Shown piece by piece: positions 7,583 to 17,818 of a stretch of 64,000 bases of DNA. The notes beneath the pieces were generated by a model. It saw only the letters and a program-made list of their open reading frames with translations, was not told the DNA's origin and made no database searches. This stretch comes from Urmitella timonensis (GTDB taxonomy: Bacteria; Actinomycetota; Actinomycetes; Actinomycetales; Actinomycetaceae), in assembly GCA_900120415.1 (NCBI GenBank), contig FQLW01000005.1:558001-622000 (forward strand). Direction: 5' to 3'. Made by a program: the position numbers and the translations under genes. Numbering within the stretch: position 1 is the first letter of the stretch; every line of letters begins with the position of its first letter.

Positions 7583-10500
7583 TTAACGGAAATCTCGGGA
7601 TTTGGTGAGGACTGGCAGATTTAGCGGCACGATTTTATCGGCTAGCAGGGCTAGGGCTCCGTCTTTGGCTTGCAGCACTCCCCTGACAATTAGGGCGTTT
7701 TGGCTGAGGGCGAGGCGGCGGTAACGCTGCCAGCAACCAACTTGGCAGATCACGTTTACTAGCCCGGTTTCGTCCTCTAAAGATAAAAACACTACCCCTT
7801 TGGCGGTGTGGGGGCGTTGGCGGTGAGTAACTATCCCGGCGCACCGGATACGTTTGCCGGCTAACTGCGAGCGTAACCCAGCGGCCGGGAGGATTCCGCG
7901 CCGGGTAAGTTCGGGACGCACCAACTTCGTGGGGTATCCCCACAGGCTAATTCCTAGGGCTAAGCTGTCCCATTGCACTTGCTCTCCGGTAGTTAAGGGT
8001 GCGAAAGGCGGCGTGGTTTCTTTAAGGGCAAGTCCTGGTAGTTCTGGCTGGTAGAAGCGATTTTGTGGGGCGGATAGCAGGGGCGCGCGCCAGAGCCCTT
8101 CGCGGCGGGTGACTCCCAGGGAAGACAGTGCCCCCGAGGTAGCTAAAAGTTCTAGCACCGAAGTGGGCAAGCGGGTACGGGAAGTAAAGTCCTCTAGGGT
8201 TTTAAAACGCCGTCCACAGCTGTCATTGCGAGCGGCAAGAATTTTTTCTATCCAAGCCGGGCGTATCCCGCGAATCTCCGCTAGCCCCAGCTTTAGCGAG
8301 GCTAAATCGGTTCCGGGGATGGAATCCTTCTGAGAAGTGTTCACGTCTGGGCGCAGAATTTTAAGGCCGTGGCGGCGCGCATCAGAGATTAATGATTGCG
8401 GGGAATAAAAACCCATCGGTTGGTTAGCGAGGATTGCGGCATAGAATACCGCGGGATAATAGGCTTTTAGCCAGGCAGAAGCATATACCAGGTAGGCGAA
8501 GGAAAAAGCGTGCGATTCTGGGAAACCAAATTCGGCGAAACCGGACATTTGTGCCCAGATTTTTTCTTGTACCGGTGGCGGGATCTGGTTCTTTTCCATG
8601 CCTTTGAAGAACTCGGCACGCAAATCGGCTAAGTGTTCTCCCGGGTTTTTGCGTCCCATTGCCCGGCGCAGGTTATCTGATTGGGAGCCGTTAAACCCGG
8701 CGGCATCTTTGGCTATCCGCATTAGTTGTTCTTGAAAAAGTGGCACCCCCAAGGTGCGTTCCAGGGCGGGTTTTAGCAGCGGATGCAGGTAGGTGACTTT
8801 TTCGCGCCTTAAGCGGCGTGCCAGATAAGGGTTTACGGCTTGCCCTTGGATAGGGCCGGGGCGTATCAAAGCAACTTCGACTACCAGGTCATAGAAACAT
8901 TTTGGTTTTAGCCGCGGCAAGGTAGACATTTGGGCGCGGGACTCTACTTGAAAAACCCCAACCGTGTCGGCTGCCTGTAATAGCTGGTACACGCGCGGGT
9001 CTTCCGGAGGTAGGTTATGCAGGCGCCAGGGCTTTCCGGAGGGCGATTTTTCGCCATGCGCTTCTAAAGTTTCAAACGCGGTACGTAGCGCCCCCATCAT
9101 TCCCAGGGACAGTAAATCGATTTTCACTAACCCGGCTTCGGCGCAGCTGTCTTTATCCCATTGCACCACGGTTCGCCCTGGCATATTTGCCCAGTTAATC
9201 GCGGCTACTTCGGTGAGTGGTTTATCGGAAAGCACCATTCCACCACAGTGGATCCCCAGGTGGCGCGGAAGTTTTTGTAGCTGCCCCGCTATTTTTTGTA
9301 CGTTTTCCGGTAAGGAGTTGCGGTCTAGTCGTGCCCATTTGGCGGCAGTTCTCGCGTCATATCCGAGGACGCGGGCGGCGTCTTTTAGGGCGGCTCGCGG
9401 ACGGTAACTAATCACATTAGCTACTTGAGCAGCGTTTTCTCGTCCATATTTGGCGTAGACGTGCTGAAGTACTTTTTCGCGTTGGTTAGATTCAATATCC
9501 AGGTCAATATCGGGTAGATCTTTACGGTCTGGGGTTAGGAAGCGGTCGAATAGCATTTGGTGGCGTACCGCATCTACCGCGGTGATTCCCAGGCAGTAAC
9601 AGACTGCGGAGTTGGCGGCGGAGCCGCGTCCTTGCACATAGATACCGGAGGAAAAACAATAATCCACTATCTCTTTTACGATCAGGAAATATCCGGAGAA
9701 TCCTTTTTGGAAAATCACTTTCAATTCTTGCTGAATTGTCTCTGCGGCTTTTCCTGGCACCGGATCCCCGTAGCGGCTACGCGCTCCCTGCCAGGAAAGC
9801 TGCTCCAGGTAGGAGTCGGCGCTATAACCGGGCGGCACCCGGGCTAAAGGCAGATGCGGCGCGGGGGTAGAAAAATCAAAAATCAGGTCTTTACCTATCT
9901 GGGCAGCGTTATCGACTGCGCCCGGAAATTGCCGATGAATCCGAAGCATCTCAGCTTCGCTACGCAACATGGCATGGCAAGCCGGCAAGTCGTCTTGGAT
10001 TTTATCGAGAGGACGCGCCAGTCGGGTAGCGGTCATAACATCTGCTAGGCGTTGACTGGCAGGGTTAGCACAGCGGGCAGCGCTGGTGGCTACCAGGGGC
10101 AACTTGGTTTTGCGCGCCAAGTGATCTAGTTGCGCCGCTAGGCTCTCTTCCCCATCGAAACCAGCTAAGGCGGCCTCTACCGCTATGTTTTCTGCCCCGA
10201 ACAGTTCTTTTAGTTGCTCTAGGAAACGAGCTGCTGCCGCGATCCCGGAGCGGTAAAGTACGCGGCGGAGCGGCCCGGCGCGGGTGCCGGTTAATACTAG
10301 CCACTGCCCTTTTGCCCACTGGGCTAGTTCGGCTAGGTTTTGCCGGTCTGCTTCCCGTCTGCCGGCAGCTAGGTGATGGCTACTGATTGCCCCGGTTAAA
10401 GCAGAATATCCCTGGCTAGAGCGGCAAATAATCGGCAGATGGGTTTGGTCCTCTAAAGTAAATTCGCACCCCGGCAGGAAGGGCAGTTCGGCTTGGCGGG

Positions 10501-10663
10501 CGGCGGCGCGCGCCTCCATTAACCCGTAAACTCCGTCATAATCGAGTAGCGCTAGGCCGGATAGCTCCAGTTTTTTCGCCCCACGCACCATTTCGCGCGG
10601 CAAACACGCCCCCACTGCGAAGGAGTAGGCAGAATGGGCGTGTAGCTCGATATAGCCACTCAT
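7583..10663 (-). CDS. dnaE2: Error-prone DNA polymerase III alpha subunit (DnaE2/ImuC)
   Basis: The catalytic polymerase of the actinobacterial mutasome (1026 aa). An N-terminal PHP domain begins right after the start (IELHAHSAYSFAVGA). The C-family polymerase palm has its aspartates in PDIDLDIES near residue 386, a helix-hairpin-helix region follows, and an OB fold lies near the C-terminus. The frame is open upstream, but the ATG at 10663 is chosen because it overlaps the imuB stop (ATGA) and the PHP domain begins there; the upstream 66 codons are a shadow of imuB. With ImuA and ImuB it carries out SOS-induced translesion synthesis. It is the last gene of the LexA-controlled operon. Confidence 0.95.
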   Translation of the reverse strand: MSGYIELHAHSAYSFAVGACLPREMVRGAKKLELSGLALLDYDGVYGLMEARAAARQAELPFLPGCEFTLEDQTHLPIICRSSQGYSALTGAISSHHLAAGRREADRQNLAELAQWAKGQWLVLTGTRAGPLRRVLYRSGIAAAARFLEQLKELFGAENIAVEAALAGFDGEESLAAQLDHLARKTKLPLVATSAARCANPASQRLADVMTATRLARPLDKIQDDLPACHAMLRSEAEMLRIHRQFPGAVDNAAQIGKDLIFDFSTPAPHLPLARVPPGYSADSYLEQLSWQGARSRYGDPVPGKAAETIQQELKVIFQKGFSGYFLIVKEIVDYCFSSGIYVQGRGSAANSAVCYCLGITAVDAVRHQMLFDRFLTPDRKDLPDIDLDIESNQREKVLQHVYAKYGRENAAQVANVISYRPRAALKDAARVLGYDARTAAKWARLDRNSLPENVQKIAGQLQKLPRHLGIHCGGMVLSDKPLTEVAAINWANMPGRTVVQWDKDSCAEAGLVKIDLLSLGMMGALRTAFETLEAHGEKSPSGKPWRLHNLPPEDPRVYQLLQAADTVGVFQVESRAQMSTLPRLKPKCFYDLVVEVALIRPGPIQGQAVNPYLARRLRREKVTYLHPLLKPALERTLGVPLFQEQLMRIAKDAAGFNGSQSDNLRRAMGRKNPGEHLADLRAEFFKGMEKNQIPPPVQEKIWAQMSGFAEFGFPESHAFSFAYLVYASAWLKAYYPAVFYAAILANQPMGFYSPQSLISDARRHGLKILRPDVNTSQKDSIPGTDLASLKLGLAEIRGIRPAWIEKILAARNDSCGRRFKTLEDFTSRTRLPTSVLELLATSGALSSLGVTRREGLWRAPLLSAPQNRFYQPELPGLALKETTPPFAPLTTGEQVQWDSLALGISLWGYPTKLVRPELTRRGILPAAGLRSQLAGKRIRCAGIVTHRQRPHTAKGVVFLSLEDETGLVNVICQVGCWQRYRRLALSQNALIVRGVLQAKDGALALLADKIVPLNLPVLTKSRDFR

Positions 10664-12234
10664 TTTTGCCCCTCCCAGGCATCTAGCCACCAGGAGGATT
10701 TGCGGAACACCAGCAGTAAGGTTTCTTGCTCGCCGTAAACCCGAAGAAAGATTCGCGGTCCTAGACGACTGGGAGCATCCGGCCGCCACCACTGTCCATT
10801 TATCGGCCAGGGGCCTTCGGTTTTTTGCACCTTGATTTTCCGTCCAGCCACCTGCACCCATTTGACCGGGGCTTTTAGCTGTCCGTCACGTCCGGGCAGG
10901 ATTTTCCGGCCGCTACTATCGATAATTACGACCGGTTTGGGGTGCATGAACACTATTTCCGGCGCTACCCCACTGAGCGCCCCGATTCTAGGGTGCGGCC
11001 GTCTTTGAGCACCCCGCTCTTGCCAAGGTTTTAGTTCAATCACTGAACGCGGATCATATCCGCTGGTTAAATGGGGTACCCGCACCCCGTTTTTACCTAA
11101 TAAAGAGCTGGCATTGCGGGCTGCCTGATCTAGTTCTTGAGGAGGATCCGCGTTTCGTCCCCAAAGCGGGGTCATTGCCTGGCGGGCATCTACCGTCTTT
11201 AAGGGATGCAGCTCTATCTGGGAGACCGCCCCCAGGGCTTCGCTGCCGCCGCCTCCAACTGTAACCGTCTCTAACTGGTGTTTTATCCTCTCTACTAGAT
11301 CTTTGCTGCTGACCTCTACCCCCAGGTTCCAGCTGCGGCTAAGTACCTTCCCGTTTTCGCAGCGGCAAATAAACTGCACCTGGGTGCACACCTGCCCGTT
11401 TGCGCGCAGGCGGGCATACATTTCCACCACTAACGCCCGGGCAGGCAGTAACAGCTGGGTAAGGGAGCTGGCAGGTGGGGTGAAGAATTGGTAGAGACCG
11501 GGTGAGGCGGGCGCGGTTTTCACCCTGGCAGCGTCCTCTAGGTTTTCCCCGCTCGCTAAGTCGTAACTAATCGCCCCCAGAGTGCCGAACCGGCGAATCA
11601 GCGCCGGACGGCCCAAAGCGGTAAGTTGCCCCAGGCTGGTGATTCCCAGATGCGTTAGGCTGCCCACCATTTTTGTTAGGTACTGATCAGAGAAATCGAA
11701 TCCGCTTATTTTTATCCCCGGACGTAAGAAAAACCCCAGGCTACTTAGGGGCTGCGCGCCAAGGAAAGGCATTATCCCAGGGTCGGCAATCAGTAGCTGC
11801 TCGCGAGCAGCTAGGCACGCCGCTAAAGTGCCACTAGCGATTCCGATCTGCACCGCGTATCCTATCTGCGCTAAGTCTTCGGTTAGTTCTGCGGCCAGGG
11901 CGGATTCTGCGCGGCGCTGGCTGCGACTTAAAGCGGCGGTTATCAGCCCTGGGAACCAGCACTTGGGGGCATAGAGTTGTTTTCCCGCGGCCTCGATAAC
12001 CGGTTGGAATGCCAGTTCTGCTTCTGCCGGTGAATAGGGTTTTTCTTTCAGGGAGGGGCAGAGGACGCGCGCTTGCTTTAGCCGCATCTGCTCCCTGATT
12101 CCGGCGGCTCTCGCCGGGGCAGTAACCGCCTGCACCCGCCCGCCGCTGCACAGCGCCACTGCTTCATCTAGAGGGAGCTTCGCGGCTTGGGCTGGCCAGG
12201 CGGGTATATAGAGGGCTAGTAACCTATCGTTCAC
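10660..12234 (-). CDS. imuB: Y-family polymerase-like protein ImuB
   Basis: A DinB/UmuC-related protein of 524 aa (MNDRLLALYIPAWP at the N-terminus). ImuB proteins are catalytically inactive Y-family relatives that act as the hub linking the beta clamp, ImuA and DnaE2. The C-terminal third is family-typical (WPINGQWW, RIFLRVY). The start is a GTG with a GGAGGGCGAG ribosome site. The stop overlaps the dnaE2 start by 4 nt, so the two are translationally coupled. It lies 99 nt downstream of imuA. Confidence 0.92.
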   Translation of the reverse strand: MNDRLLALYIPAWPAQAAKLPLDEAVALCSGGRVQAVTAPARAAGIREQMRLKQARVLCPSLKEKPYSPAEAELAFQPVIEAAGKQLYAPKCWFPGLITAALSRSQRRAESALAAELTEDLAQIGYAVQIGIASGTLAACLAAREQLLIADPGIMPFLGAQPLSSLGFFLRPGIKISGFDFSDQYLTKMVGSLTHLGITSLGQLTALGRPALIRRFGTLGAISYDLASGENLEDAARVKTAPASPGLYQFFTPPASSLTQLLLPARALVVEMYARLRANGQVCTQVQFICRCENGKVLSRSWNLGVEVSSKDLVERIKHQLETVTVGGGGSEALGAVSQIELHPLKTVDARQAMTPLWGRNADPPQELDQAARNASSLLGKNGVRVPHLTSGYDPRSVIELKPWQERGAQRRPHPRIGALSGVAPEIVFMHPKPVVIIDSSGRKILPGRDGQLKAPVKWVQVAGRKIKVQKTEGPWPINGQWWRPDAPSRLGPRIFLRVYGEQETLLLVFRKSSWWLDAWEGQK

Positions 12235-12333: not shown

Positions 12334-12819
12334 TCACGCACTCACCTTTATGACTGAAACTGCCCCAGGGGAACTTTCCGAGTGCCGGGGGTTAGCTGCT
12401 AGGGAGATAGCGCCTGCCCAGGGTGGCGCGGACAGAATTACGCAGCCGGAGCGGCGTGCTTTTGCGGTTAGAATCCGTTGTTGCTGCGGGCCGTAATCTA
12501 CCATTCCGATAGCCAGGACTGCCGTGCAGGGTACGAAAAGTTGGGCGCATGCCAGGGCGCTGCCGCCGGTATAGGGAATGGTGATTACCCGCCCTAAGTC
12601 CAGGCCGATTTGCCAGGCGCGCTGCCAGCCTAGATCGGGAAAATCTAGGAATACAGCCCAGCCGCTCTCCCCCATTTTTTCGGCGGCCATCTCTAGTAGC
12701 CCAGCCCCGCCCGTTACCTTTTGATAAGCGCTTGCCAGCGGCTTTGGGGCGCGAGACTGCATCCCCAAAACCTGGCGCGCCTTTTCCAGGCGCTGCAACT
12801 GAGCCAACTTATCGAACAT
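12334..12819 (-). CDS. imuA: ImuA-like SOS mutagenesis protein (short form)
   Basis: A 161-aa RecA-fold-like protein preceding imuB and dnaE2, the position and size of actinobacterial ImuA'. FLDFPDLGWQRAWQIGLDLGRVI and the following alternating segments resemble the degenerate RecA core seen in this family. The likely ATG at 12819 lies inside a perfect LexA box, and a consensus -10 ends 7 nt before it, so the mRNA is probably leaderless. Assignment rests mostly on synteny and general fold resemblance. Confidence 0.8.
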   Translation of the reverse strand: MFDKLAQLQRLEKARQVLGMQSRAPKPLASAYQKVTGGAGLLEMAAEKMGESGWAVFLDFPDLGWQRAWQIGLDLGRVITIPYTGGSALACAQLFVPCTAVLAIGMVDYGPQQQRILTAKARRSGCVILSAPPWAGAISLAANPRHSESSPGAVSVIKVSA

Positions 12820-12856
12820 ACGTTCGATTATAGGAACCCTCCCCCCGATTTGTCAC
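12812..12856 (-). promoter_or_regulatory. LexA-controlled, probably leaderless promoter of imuA-imuB-dnaE2
   Basis: Reading the minus strand: -35 GTGACA (12856-12851), 18-nt spacer, perfect -10 TATAAT (12832-12827), then 7 nt to the ATG of imuA (12819-12817). The sequence TCGAACGTATGTTCGA (12827-12812) has perfect 6-bp arms matching the actinobacterial/Bacillus-type SOS box TCGAAC-N4-GTTCGA. The box touches the end of the -10 and covers both the predicted transcription start and the start codon, so LexA would block promoter clearance. Confidence 0.88.
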
Positions 12857-12924
12857 CCCTTTTTCCGGGAGCGTTTTTGGGGTAAAAATCCACCTTAAAG
12901 AGATGCGGTTAAGTACTTATGCCC

Positions 12925-13212
12925 CTAAAAGAGGTCTGCATGACTTCCGGTTGCAACCAAGGACAGCACCAGCACGTCGTTTTGCTTGTAATAAATCAGC
13001 AACCAGTCTGGTTCGACATGACACTCTCGATGTTTCACCCAGTTACCAGTTAGTGCATGATCTCGACACTTTTCCGATAAAGGAGTATCGCTCGCCAGAA
13101 GGTCAACGATTCTCTCTAGTTTTCCAAGGTCTTTTCCGTCTTTTCCCCGCTTTTTAGCAGCTTTCAGTTGTTTGCGAAACTGCGAGGAGTATTTAATGGC
13201 ATAGCGCGCCAT
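12925..13212 (-). CDS. Type II toxin, YafQ/RelE family mRNA interferase
   Basis: A 95-aa RelE-superfamily toxin. SSQFRKQLKAAKKRGKD near the start, DHALTGNW in the middle, and ECHVEPDWLLIYY followed by L-ATGSHADLF at the end are typical of YafQ, including the C-terminal His/Phe motif needed for ribosome-dependent mRNA cleavage. Its ATG overlaps the antitoxin stop (TAATG), the usual coupling in such pairs. Confidence 0.9.
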   Translation of the reverse strand: MARYAIKYSSQFRKQLKAAKKRGKDGKDLGKLERIVDLLASDTPLSEKCRDHALTGNWVKHRECHVEPDWLLIYYKQNDVLVLSLVATGSHADLF

Positions 13213-13493
13213 TAGTCGTCCTCACTTAGAGCCACAGCAAATGCTTCACGGGCGTTTGCGTAGCCGGGAACGCGAGGGTCTTTGGCAATCTGTTCCGCCT
13301 CTAACATGGCGGCGATCGTCCCCCTATTGGGGTTGCCTAGTTGAATCTGAAAAGGAATGGCACGCTCGCGGATAGCTTGCCGCACGAAAATGTTAAACGC
13401 GGTAGAAATATTCATTCCCATCTCGCTAAACAGCTGATCCGCCTCTTTCTTCAAGGCCGCATCCATACGAATACTGATATTTGTTGTAGCCAT
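13212..13493 (-). CDS. Antitoxin, RelB/DinJ family
   Basis: A 93-aa ribbon-helix-helix antitoxin: TTNISIRMDAALKKEAD, then F-EMGMNISTAFNIFVRQ, as in DinJ. The N-terminal domain binds the operator DNA and the C-terminal half neutralises the YafQ toxin encoded next. The ATG at 13493 is chosen because homology starts there; eight more in-frame codons lie upstream. A palindromic operator overlaps the promoter. Confidence 0.9.
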   Translation of the reverse strand: MATTNISIRMDAALKKEADQLFSEMGMNISTAFNIFVRQAIRERAIPFQIQLGNPNRGTIAAMLEAEQIAKDPRVPGYANAREAFAVALSEDD

Positions 13494-13511
13494 AAAATAC
13501 CCCCCTTTTAG

Positions 13512-13544
13512 GTGCATAGTATGCTATTTGCACGAATAAATCAA
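13512..13544 (-). promoter_or_regulatory. Promoter and palindromic operator of the toxin-antitoxin pair
   Basis: On the minus strand, -35 TTGATT (13544-13539), 17-nt spacer and -10 TACTAT (13521-13516). An imperfect inverted repeat spans 13512-13533: GTGCATAG, 4 nt, CTA-TT-TGCAC. It covers the -10 and is a good candidate operator for autoregulation by the antitoxin-toxin complex. Confidence 0.65.
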
Positions 13545-13863
13545 TACTTTTCATGACAGAAGTAGTATTTAGAAATTACAGATAAATCCGGTAGCGTCTT
13601 CGCCACAACGACTGCACGCAAGCGCATGGGACGGAAGGAACCACGGACACTCTACTGGGGAACACTTTCTGGGCAAGAAAATCTACCTTTGAGGGTGGGC
13701 GGGATCCTCGAAATCTGCCCGCTTGGCACGGTTTTTATACCGCTTAGTCCAGATTACTTGTACTGTCGGCGATGAGGCTTTTAACTGTAAGTACCAGATA
13801 CGCAAGCACTCGCGTTTTGCTGATTATCGCCGGTAAGTGCGAGAGGAAAGGAGTCGCAACGGA
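13545..13863. other. Intergenic region between divergent TA and LytTR genes
   Basis: About 320 bases without a supported gene. They separate the toxin-antitoxin promoter (pointing left) from the LytTR gene (pointing right). An AAAGGAG ribosome site for the LytTR gene lies at about 13847-13853. No tRNA, strong terminator or repeat was found. Confidence 0.5.
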
Positions 13864-14961: not shown

Positions 14962-15804
14962 CTACTCGTTTTGTAGCTGCTCTATATATTGAGCCATTAG
15001 CTCACGCCGGCAAGTAATGCGCCTAGTCATTTCTGCCATCAAGTCACGCCAGTTGTCCTTATTGTCCTTATCATCATTAGGCGAATGTGGCAAAAGAATC
15101 GGATTACCTTGTTCGTCTATCCAAGGAGAAAGACAAAGCGAATCGCCCTCTTCCTGATTTTTCTTAAGCAGCTTTCGAAAAGGCATAGCCACGTCATATT
15201 TTCCATCATCATTTCGAGGTTTATAGAAAAGAGACTCTTTATCTTGGTAATACTTCTTTAAAGTTAAATCCCAGTAATCCTCGGTAGCTCGGTTGTTACG
15301 CTTAACATTAAATCCATCTGGCACAATAATCAGATTTGCCGAAGTGTATGCTGAGCGAATAAATTCTTGCACAGTTTTTTCTTCGAACACTTCCCTGAAT
15401 TCGTCAAAGTGCTTCAAGATCGCACCATAAGTACGATTCGTAGCACTTTTACCGTTGAAGGTCTTTTCGATATCAGGATTTTGGAACCACAAATCTCCAT
15501 TCTTATTTTCTCCGTAAGCCTCCTGTAGAGCGTACTTAAGGGTTGTCCACACCGAACACATCCAATCCCCCTGGACGTATTTAGACGGTCTCCGACTAAA
15601 TGTGTTACGGCATTCACGAACAGTAATACCTAGACGCTCTCCCCACAGCTCTTTATAAAAATAGCGAGCTCCATCAGAGGAATCAGGATCTTCTACCCCT
15701 CCTCCTGCTTTATACTCAAGCCACGTGCGGACGTGTTCTTCACTCGGTTCTTCAGAAAGCTTGGGATCCAGTAAAAAACAGTCAAGGTCAAAGAAATCAT
15801 TCAT
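14962..15804 (-). CDS. Uncharacterised protein in accessory island
   Basis: A 280-aa soluble, charged protein with no signal peptide or membrane segment. I do not recognise it with confidence; it may belong to a DUF6994-like family of proteins of unknown function (weak recollection). Visible features are an acidic N-terminus (MNDFFDLDCFLLDPKLSEE), tryptophan-rich segments (QGDWMCSVWTTLKYAL), SLCLSPWIDEQGNPILLP, and a C-terminal helix with several Arg and Glu residues. A GTGGA precedes the ATG. It sits between a regulator pair and the XRE-ImmA-PIN operon. Confidence 0.7.
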   Translation of the reverse strand: MNDFFDLDCFLLDPKLSEEPSEEHVRTWLEYKAGGGVEDPDSSDGARYFYKELWGERLGITVRECRNTFSRRPSKYVQGDWMCSVWTTLKYALQEAYGENKNGDLWFQNPDIEKTFNGKSATNRTYGAILKHFDEFREVFEEKTVQEFIRSAYTSANLIIVPDGFNVKRNNRATEDYWDLTLKKYYQDKESLFYKPRNDDGKYDVAMPFRKLLKKNQEEGDSLCLSPWIDEQGNPILLPHSPNDDKDNKDNWRDLMAEMTRRITCRRELMAQYIEQLQNE

Positions 15805-15840
15805 AAGTCCACGTTAATAGTCAGGATACAAATCCGGAAG

Positions 15841-16029
15841 ATGTTTGCACTAATACCTTCGGGGAGCCACCCTTTAGAACCGGCAGTTAGAATCAACATT
15901 ACTGATAATTTCCAGTATTCAATCTTGGAAAATTTCGACACAAACTCAAAAATCGAAGACATTGTAAGTCGCGAGTCATATTGGAAACGGGTGCTTGCTA
16001 CCCGAGAACATGGGCTGAATGAAAACTGA
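15841..16029 (+). pseudogene. C-terminal remnant resembling a GIY-YIG nuclease-family protein
   Basis: A 62-codon frame reads LIPSGSHPLEPAVRIN, ITDNFQYSILENF and YWKRVLATREHGLNEN. From memory, this matches the C-terminal end of actinobacterial GIY-YIG nuclease-family proteins; the catalytic N-terminal domain is absent. No ribosome site is visible, and the neighbouring upstream DNA codes for the unknown gene on the other strand. I read it as a truncated relic. The opposite-strand frame over the same bases is probably a shadow. Confidence 0.5.
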
Positions 16030-16146
16030 CGAAGATACCACTGCATGAAACTGCTACCTCAGTGGGAACCAAAACGTTGGGCTTCCGCTAGTACGCCCTC
16101 GGAAATAATACTGAGTGTCTATATTCGAGTAGTAAGGCTCGGAACG

Positions 16147-16659
16147 TTACAGAATATAGCGGCCCTGTTCCCTAAGCTGGGCAAGAATATCTGCTCTTTC
16201 CTGCGAAGAAACTAGCCTTTTCTTTTCTAACAGCTCCAGAAGTGTCCTCGTCCCGAAAGCGCCTTTTACCGCTTCCTGTTCCTGCGCAATTACAACCGCA
16301 TCCTCATCGTCGCTTACGAACAAAACATTGTCACTACAGGTGTAACGACAGACAATAATCGCTAGGGTTTCCGCTTCTCCTAGATTGTCCGTATTACCGT
16401 CATGCCCAGGGGTGTCGAAATAACTTTTAAATACCTGAGTTTGAGCGAGCTCACTGGGATTGGGCATATCAACAGTAAAGAATACCTCCTGCACCTGCGA
16501 TAATAAATCTTGCTGATTACGCAAAAGATACTGGACTTCTCGCATTACCGTAGGCGCTAAGCGAAGCTTATCTCCAAAAAGCTGCTTTATATGAGGGAGT
16601 AAATCCACTAAAGCTAAAGAATAAACAGTACAGGCATCATGGAAAAATAGCGCAGCCAA
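16147..16659 (-). CDS. PIN-domain-like protein of the XRE-ImmA-PIN operon
   Basis: A 170-aa protein with the acidic pattern of a PIN nuclease: Asp8 in FHDACTVYSL, Glu41, Glu95 in NLGEAETLAI, and Asp117/118/120 in FVSDDEDAVV. PIN domains are Mg-dependent RNases and often act as toxins. It starts three bases after the metalloprotease gene and is the third gene of an operon with an XRE regulator and an ImmA/IrrE protease. A nuclease function is inferred from the motif pattern; target and toxicity are unknown. Confidence 0.7.
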   Translation of the reverse strand: MAALFFHDACTVYSLALVDLLPHIKQLFGDKLRLAPTVMREVQYLLRNQQDLLSQVQEVFFTVDMPNPSELAQTQVFKSYFDTPGHDGNTDNLGEAETLAIIVCRYTCSDNVLFVSDDEDAVVIAQEQEAVKGAFGTRTLLELLEKKRLVSSQERADILAQLREQGRYIL

Positions 16660-16662
16660 GAT

Positions 16663-17412
16663 TTATTGCTCCAGCAGTTCAAGAACCTCGTCTGCCGACA
16701 GCAACTCGGGCGTCTGCCGGACAGATTCCTCCTCAGTTGTGGCTGTATTTTTCACCCCAAGAGCCCACTCATAGGTCCCAGCTGGTGCTTTCCCACTATT
16801 TACTTGTTCGTAGAGCTTAGCAAGCAGATACGCAGGAAATCTTTGCGCACCCGATAAACTGGCACGCCGTTGCACATCAGTCCAGGTAAGCCCGATTTCT
16901 TTTAGATGTTTACCCAGGAATTTTTGGGTAACTACTGTTTTGTCGTCCTCGAAAAGAAAATCTGGGGTAGGTAAGTCAAACTTATTGAGCCGATTCACCA
17001 AGGCCGCAACTGATACCCCCCAATCCCACAAAAACTTGGCGAACCTTGCTGGTTCAGCTTTGTCCTCTACCAGCCTTTCAACCTGTACTTTTGGCATCAA
17101 TAAGTCGGCAGCAAAACGATTAGCGCCCCGTTCCTGCTCCGATATTTCGTCGTCCCGCTTAATCGTAGTGTCGTTAGCTATATGCCCGATTTCGTGGGCA
17201 ATCGCAAACATTTGCCGAAACCAGTTATCGGTTCTGGGAACCACAATGACCGGGCGAGAAGCTAAAGATAAACAGGTACCGCCTGCTTTGAGTCCAATCT
17301 GCACCACGTCGATCTCAAGGCACTTTTCAACTTGGGAAGAAAAGTCAATCTCAATTCTCCCCCCAAGCAGCCCCAAGACTTGCGCCGGGGTCTTTCCTTC
17401 CAAAATGCTCAT
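16663..17412 (-). CDS. ImmA/IrrE family metallo-endopeptidase
   Basis: A 249-aa protein with the zinc-protease motif HEIGH at residues 73-77 and the third ligand in EQERGANRFAADLLMP (Glu94 region), the COG2856/ImmA-IrrE signature. Such proteases cleave a cognate XRE repressor (ImmA/ImmR of ICEBs1, IrrE/DdrO of Deinococcus) after a stress signal. The ATG overlaps the stop of the upstream XRE gene (ATGA), so the pair is co-translated. A C-terminal extension of about 120 residues is of unknown role. Confidence 0.9.
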   Translation of the reverse strand: MSILEGKTPAQVLGLLGGRIEIDFSSQVEKCLEIDVVQIGLKAGGTCLSLASRPVIVVPRTDNWFRQMFAIAHEIGHIANDTTIKRDDEISEQERGANRFAADLLMPKVQVERLVEDKAEPARFAKFLWDWGVSVAALVNRLNKFDLPTPDFLFEDDKTVVTQKFLGKHLKEIGLTWTDVQRRASLSGAQRFPAYLLAKLYEQVNSGKAPAGTYEWALGVKNTATTEEESVRQTPELLSADEVLELLEQ

Positions 17413-17741
17413 CCATATGCCTGCTTATAGACCAAGGCGATAGAACGGAAAACATCCAGATCTTCCTGGTTATGCCGGTATTCTTTGGTCTCCCCATCCC
17501 AATCGTGGCGGGCAGCAACATCTTTCGGCACCCAATAAGGGTCAGAGCCGGTAATTAACCAATCCAGAGAAACGTCCAAAATAGTCGCAATTTCGGCAAT
17601 CTCGCCAGCACTAACTTTGCGGCTACCGCTAATCACCCGGCTAAGTCGCGCCTGATCCCAATCCAGTCTCTCCGCCAACGCCTTTTGACTAAGACCGCTA
17701 TCCTTGCAAGCACTTCCAATCCGCTCTCCAATGGTTTCCAT
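17409..17741 (-). CDS. XRE-family helix-turn-helix regulator
   Basis: A 110-aa protein with an N-terminal Cro/C1-type HTH (GLSQKALAERLDWDQARLSR at about residues 16-35) and SLDWLITGSD after it. The ATG at 17741 is preceded by a strong GGAGGTG; the longer frame upstream has no ribosome site. The gene overlaps the ImmA/IrrE gene by 4 nt and is likely its cleavage substrate and the autoregulator of the operon. Confidence 0.9.
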   Translation of the reverse strand: METIGERIGSACKDSGLSQKALAERLDWDQARLSRVISGSRKVSAGEIAEIATILDVSLDWLITGSDPYWVPKDVAARHDWDGETKEYRHNQEDLDVFRSIALVYKQAYG

Positions 17742-17803
17742 CTCTAACACCTCCGTTCCATACCCCCAGCATAAACGAGAATCAGCGAATATAGAAGACA
17801 AAT

Positions 17804-17818
17804 TTGTGAAAATCACAA
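17804..17818. promoter_or_regulatory. Candidate operator upstream of the XRE gene
   Basis: An inverted repeat TTGTGA-AAA-TCACAA lies 62 nt upstream of the XRE start codon in otherwise A/T-rich DNA. A short palindrome in this place fits the autoregulatory site of an XRE repressor. Binding is inferred. Confidence 0.5.

Follow-up and report, generated by a model that had tools for sequence, protein, structure and literature searches.

A conserved SOS box containing the imuA' start codon, with predicted leaderless initiation, in Varibaculum and related Actinomycetaceae

In Mycobacterium tuberculosis, the mutasome genes are induced by mitomycin C in a RecA-dependent manner, and SOS boxes precede most of the gene set (PMC8151990, available text). 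The mycobacterial imuA'-imuB/dnaE2 system is a LexA/SOS-regulated mutasome, as is predicted for the locus described here. Its boxes are described as lying in promoters, and the available text of that paper states no operator holding a start codon, unlike Varibaculum imuA'. The lexA gene of M. tuberculosis was reported to be leaderless, with the translation start placed at the transcription start (PMC2897130). It is a leaderless SOS gene of the kind proposed here, and an operator over the start codon is not described in the accessible part of that article. According to PMC6448022 (available text), 24% of M. smegmatis transcripts are leaderless and TANNNT is the preferred -10 element, both features being common in mycobacteria. 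The RDR regulon of Deinococcus (DdrO/RDRM) also comprises leaderless damage genes with a repressor motif that overlaps the promoter. The repressor is a different one, and in two examples from partially available sources the motif ends before the start codon, whereas the Varibaculum box contains it: ruvB has its transcription start at +1 and the RDRM motif from -35 (PMC5552922), and in ddrD the motif lies 10 nt before the putative start codon (PMC8254717). For Streptomyces venezuelae, actinobacterial SOS boxes of the LexA regulon were mapped by ChIP-seq (PMC9380542, available portion). Among the selected genes in Table 1 of that paper, boxes start between -199 and +91 of the predicted start codons; the closest upstream box is at -14, and none is at -8. 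No recognisable description of a LexA operator containing a start codon was found in the literature searched, part of it available as excerpts, with most subscription papers, including those on mycobacterial SOS boxes and LexA regulons, lying outside it. Leaderless mRNA and the LexA operator are each known; what appears to be new within that literature is that they are fused into a single recurrent operator-start word that follows a register rule.

The locus was analyzed in a window of 64,000 nucleotides from Urmitella timonensis (GCA_900120415.1, contig FQLW01000005.1, positions 558,001 to 622,000). Its genome, G000, is counted here as one of six Varibaculum genomes; this genus assignment follows three named relatives, 88-90% identical in protein sequence, which match genomes listed under the same genus. 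On the minus strand the whole site reads 5'-GTGACA-AATCGGGGGGAGGGTTCC-TATAAT-CGAACGTATGTTCGA-3' (Table 1), where the -35/-10 spacer AATCGGGGGGAGGGTTCC is 18 nt long in G000 and 17 nt in the other five genomes. A first-pass annotation had described a perfect LexA box abutting TATAAT, with the imuA ATG inside the box seven bases past the -10. Each of these elements was confirmed. On the minus strand, the box matches TCGAACNNNNGTTCGA with 0 mismatches and shares its first T with the end of TATAAT, and the ATG (12819-12817) lies within the box at the proposed distance. The promoter thus carries the actinobacterial SOS box TCGAAC-N4-GTTCGA without mismatch, and the 7-nt gap falls within the approximately 6-8 nt that separate the -10 from the start codon in leaderless genes. 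The further claim that operator, predicted transcription start, and first codon are the same DNA needs narrowing: coding is confined to the right half of the box, ATGTTCGA, which encodes Met-Phe-Asp (the Asp codon with its first two bases), and the left 8 bp precede the ATG.

No other exact match to the box pattern occurs in the 2.14-Mb genome, where about 0.13 would be expected by chance (our own arithmetic, equal base frequencies). A further 46 places match at one or two mismatches, fewer than a reversed control pattern gives, and loose matches therefore mean little in this genome. An inverted-repeat scan of the site (minimum length 8) reported no repeat, the box itself included. The promoter has 11/12 consensus matches and is the sole promoter-like site in 12500-13600; because shuffled sequence yields 0.9 such sites on average, the promoter score by itself is not evidence.

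Table 1. Features of the imuA' promoter and operon (window coordinates)
Feature	Position	Strand	Support
-35-like hexamer GTGACA	12851..12856	-	present in 6/6 Varibaculum genomes
-10 hexamer TATAAT	12827..12832	-	unchanged in 6/6 Varibaculum genomes
SOS box (predicted LexA operator) TCGAACGTATGTTCGA	12812..12827	-	0/16 positions variable in 6 Varibaculum genomes
imuA' start codon ATG, predicted transcript +1	12817..12819	-	+1 predicted from the 7-nt gap to the -10
imuA' (161 aa), DnaE2-dependent mutagenesis accessory factor-like	12334..12819	-	NF058630, 42 bits, cut-off 65; operon context
imuB (Y-family-like), GTG start behind AGGAGGG	10660..12234	-	PF00817, 38.9 bits, cut-off 23.2
dnaE2, ATG 10663 overlapping the imuB stop, SD GGGAGGGG	7583..10663	-	NF004225, 1182 bits, cut-off 939

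The proposed assignment to an SOS mutasome operon was supported, imuB and dnaE2 being the next genes after imuA'. The NF058630 match of imuA' (E 7.7e-11) is under the curated cut-off, so the name depends on a weak match plus the place in the operon. No ImuB-named model was among the profile matches for the imuB product, which exceeds the cut-off of PF00817. Elsewhere in the genome there is one LexA-type match (PF01726, 61.6 bits, cut-off 23.7). Three imperfect SOS boxes (1-2 mismatches) were located between lexA and a divergent ORF (G000:C5:93337-93431; L002, L003), and this ORF appears, by eye, to have an SD-led start. A cluster at 14962-17816 of the window, also on the minus strand, contains among others a helix-turn-helix-like ORF and, after it, an ORF with what we take, by eye, to be a HEIGH-type metallopeptidase motif.

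LexA-repressed, leaderless initiation from within the operator is in our judgment the best reading of the site, with a probability of roughly 0.8. The geometry of the site, its conservation, and its recurrence can be read directly from the genomes; LexA repression, leaderless initiation, and mutasome function are ascribed by analogy with known families. On this model, the housekeeping RNA polymerase would recognize GTGACA-N17/18-TATAAT and begin transcription about 7 nt past the -10, at the A of the box ATG. Bound LexA would cover the -10 end, the start site, and the first codons, thereby blocking initiation, and upon DNA damage RecA-stimulated cleavage of LexA would free the site. The resulting mRNA, starting with AUG, would be translated leaderless into ImuA' with a Met-Phe-Asp N terminus, the right half of the operator doubling as codons 1-3, and the downstream genes imuB and dnaE2 would be translated via SD sequences.

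SD sequences are indeed present at imuB and dnaE2 (Table 1), and none was found at a usable distance from the box ATG of imuA'. Together with the disfavoring of alternative start codons described below, this pattern supports the leaderless start suggested in the first-pass annotation. Across the window, TANNNT occurred 6-8 nt before ATG or GTG in 10 of 87 early cases (first 60 codons of long frames) versus 20 of 594 later ones, an excess that weakly supports the existence of leaderless genes in this window.

The alternative that survives best is that most imuA' expression comes from a longer mRNA with a leader, through read-through from a relB-yafQ-like module or from an undetected upstream promoter, with the box ATG being the start codon but not the 5' end. 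Genes for a RelB/DinJ-like antitoxin and a YafQ-like toxin lie directly upstream of imuA' on the same strand (window 12925-13517, minus strand), and no terminator-like site was detected between this module and imuA'. The sequence GGAGGG, 17 nt upstream of the ATG and inside the promoter spacer, could act weakly on such a longer transcript, but this distance is too great for usual SD use. Moreover, the module varies among the available Varibaculum flanks, with a full-length match in G206 and G207, a partial one in G205, and none in G204 and G208, while the -10, box, and ATG are unchanged. We therefore regard a mainly leadered transcript as unlikely, and initiation at the box ATG from a leaderless mRNA remains the preferred reading.

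From the -10 to codon 3, 0/21 positions changed across the six Varibaculum genomes. Per genome, 6-11 of 47 positions differed from the window between -60 and -13, and 40-48 of 475 in the rest of imuA'. The absence of changes is only modestly telling because parts of imuA' itself are conserved (22/180 positions variable among Varibaculum genomes at imuA' positions 120 to 299). Downstream of the box ATG, third codon positions vary most: variable sites at the three codon positions numbered 9/10/26 in the first 240 nt and 11/10/31 beyond. Missing codon bias upstream was set aside as evidence for the start, as those stretches are nearly saturated; Varibaculum sequence before about -60 is too diverged for its absence to count.

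The protein might instead start elsewhere, at an upstream GTG, an internal TTG, or Met20, with the box ATG being incidental. A GTG at -36 is in frame in five of the six Varibaculum genomes, and TTG codons as well as Met20 follow the box ATG. However, the GTG is out of frame in G000, whose -35/-10 spacer is longer by one base, and in that genome the frame of the box ATG, followed upstream, reaches a stop before any other start codon. Met20, the next Met and the one relevant to the first-pass caveat that imuA might begin later, is not conserved and is replaced by AAC in G205. No SD sequence was seen by eye before the TTG codons. Later and upstream starts are thus disfavored for imuA', and we consider a start outside the box highly unlikely.

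To place the fused site in the family, imuA' orthologues were compared. A protein search gave matches in 175 of 213 Actinomycetaceae genomes, and DNA was compared for 110 of these loci (30 given by the search and 80 fetched); L007-L009, duplicates of Varibaculum genomes, were left out of the 110-locus counts. A box with at most two mismatches was present within 700 bp upstream at 105 of the 110 loci and absent at five, which bears out the expected conservation in related genomes. That the palindrome is a chance site or belongs to another regulator is barely credible, since, although its status as a LexA operator is predicted from sequence, it is the only exact match in the genome, has counterparts at nearly all of these loci, and is unchanged in Varibaculum.

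At 80 of the 105 boxed loci, no start codon within the box leads into imuA' through an open frame, and many of these show an SD-led start slightly downstream (uncounted). Six have an in-frame box ATG plus an SD-led start, and six an in-frame box GTG or TTG. At the remaining 13 the box ATG is in frame and an SD-led start is lacking within 60 nt; the geometry, called compact in the first-pass annotation, is thus unusual for imuA' (13/105 loci). Among the 26 genera sampled, these loci represent four: g1 (Varibaculum, 6), g18 (2), g25 (2), and g34 (3); G201, a fourth g34 genome outside the 110, shows the same arrangement by pattern. In this group, which was defined without reference to the -10, a TANNNT element shares its last T with the box in 13/13 cases, compared with 17/92 of the others (Fisher p 8.6e-9, with related genomes of the same genus not being independent). 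An in-frame box ATG alone was rejected as telling: a central ATG is present in 44 boxes and opens the imuA' frame in 19 of them, not far from the one in three expected by chance. The case therefore rests on the missing SD sequences, the -10 register, and the conservation.

In an rpoB tree of 30 genomes, g1 and g25 group together with full support and g34 is placed elsewhere. The arrangement needs at least two changes on this tree, and a single clade was rejected (AU p 2.7e-5); the two g18 assemblies gave no rpoB match and are outside the tree. Consequently, at least two origins or else many losses must be invoked for the arrangement, and the fused site is not peculiar to one genus. A related configuration was noted in genus g31 (L141-L145), where the -10 is in register and mini-ORFs of 3-29 codons begin at the box ATG ahead of imuA'; four of the five adjoin an SD-led start in another frame. 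These mini-ORFs possibly encode leaderless upstream peptides.

PafBC (RecA-NDp) promoters provide a further comparison. The motif for LexA-independent damage induction is tTGTCRgtg-8 nt-TannnT (PMC5656591), and a shorter form is given in PMC8151990, both as found in the available text. We scored TGTCRGTG-N8-TANNNT, requiring exact spacing and tolerating no more than two mismatches in TGTCRGTG. The motif was found at 39 of the 105 imuA' boxes, and its -10 shares the box T in 16 of these. A looser scan gave 42/105 at the box versus 3/105 at a control position no more than 300 bp upstream, a weak control because many loci have no candidate -10 there. In several related genera the imuA' -10 thus belongs to such a motif, overlapping or near the SOS box. 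In Varibaculum, by contrast, the motif was found in 0/6 imuA' promoters, which have a near-consensus -35 instead, and no WYL-domain pair was found, five genomes having no match and one a single marginal match (22.7 bits). WYL matches were counted as such, and their identity with PafB/PafC is presumed. The motif occurred in 38/88 genomes with at least two WYL matches and in 1/17 with fewer, the latter being a 79% complete assembly. WYL matches are present in genus g3, yet the motif was found there in 0/18, so PafBC does not require it at imuA' in that genus. In Varibaculum, imuA' has probably exchanged a two-input damage promoter for one under LexA control only.

The same cassette was found before other genes. 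The word TANNNTCGAACNNATGTTCGA is present in 26/213 family genomes and 71/394 class genomes, and the reversed control word in 0 among the matches listed for both sets. Sites with <330 nt downstream were left out of the class, viral, and family tables, and entries repeating the same 100-bp surroundings were removed, in the class set on the one hand and in the viral and family sets on the other. Among the genes whose start is the cassette ATG are dnaE2 (five sites, from g10 and g25), a umuD-like S24 gene (two sites in g24, one of them checked against Pfam), a gene for a UvrD-type helicase, a large DUF222/HNH group, and prophage genes. In the class sample, the box ATG set the GC3 frame at 27/32 in-register sites compared with 47/109 other in-box ATGs, and ORFs of at least 100 codons followed at 26/32 and 49/109, respectively. 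The in-register group was collected mostly by the -10 pattern, the other from an unselected sample of limited size drawn from these genomes, and 23 of the 26 in-register class genes with at least 75 codons belong to a single DUF222-rich cluster; because of both, the contrast is support and not proof. Eight of nine in-register class proteins chosen for the DUF222 check match that family. No 100-codon ORF follows the box ATG at 6/32 in-register class sites and 10/28 family sites. The box frame is best by GC3 in only 3/5 dnaE2 and 1/2 umuD-like genes, although homology makes the reading frame of these genes plain. There is redundancy in the viral set, where one prophage family accounts for 16 genes, and only 21/68 in-register viral sites have 100 codons.

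A prophage family from Mycobacterium abscessus bears on start annotation. In two phage records (L429:736-1086 and L430:736-1086) the annotated gene start is in frame with the box ATG but lies 35 codons ahead of it. The 16 members do not conserve upstream starts: in two, a stop lies 8 codons before the box ATG and no start codon intervenes, seven have only a TTG at -36, and an ATG at -105 occurs in two. Compared with L286, eleven members differ at 38-60 of 96 upstream positions and at no more than 44 of 240 past the box ATG, where there are no gaps. Among all 16 sequences 90/96 upstream columns vary, which is near saturation, and the five members that align upstream show only 4 changes there. 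The comparison argues that the box ATG is the true start of the prophage gene and that the annotated start in L429 and L430 is probably too long.

Two other groups were observed. Viral-contig genes starting at the cassette include L254, which encodes an IrrE-like metallopeptidase (PF06114), and L270, L278, L280, L289, L296, L304, and L317, which cluster with it; they are possible SOS-timed prophage induction factors. In several genomes from family f26, L357, L372, L374, L379, L380, L389, L391, L395, and L398 have similar DNA after an SOS box, mostly with MFDSILQK in frame. Because the frame is not kept open, this stretch may be a repeat or regulatory element.

A wider reading, which we hold tentatively and at somewhat less than even odds, is that TANNNTCGAACNNATGTTCGA is a portable actinobacterial 21-bp module combining operator, transcript start, and leaderless start codon. 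It would have been recruited repeatedly before DNA-damage genes (imuA', dnaE2, umuD-like, and DUF222/HNH genes) and prophage genes, stamping Met-Phe-Asp/Glu on their products. Under the same reading, an out-of-frame ATG in related genera would open a leaderless mini-ORF ahead of imuA', a likely path to a coding operator, and the Varibaculum promoter would have switched class from a PafBC type to a near-consensus sigma-70 type.

If LexA-repressed, leaderless initiation from within the operator is correct, the recognition sequence of a repressor is also translated, and operator and N terminus would have to evolve together. The SOS box with an ATG and an in-register -10 would provide a sequence rule for finding leaderless SOS genes and for correcting start codons, as in the two M. 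abscessus phage records. It also suggests how SOS control and leaderless translation can combine where the damage response may have lost its PafBC arm. In Varibaculum and related bacteria, the off-switch, the transcript start, and the protein start are thus probably combined in one short sequence.
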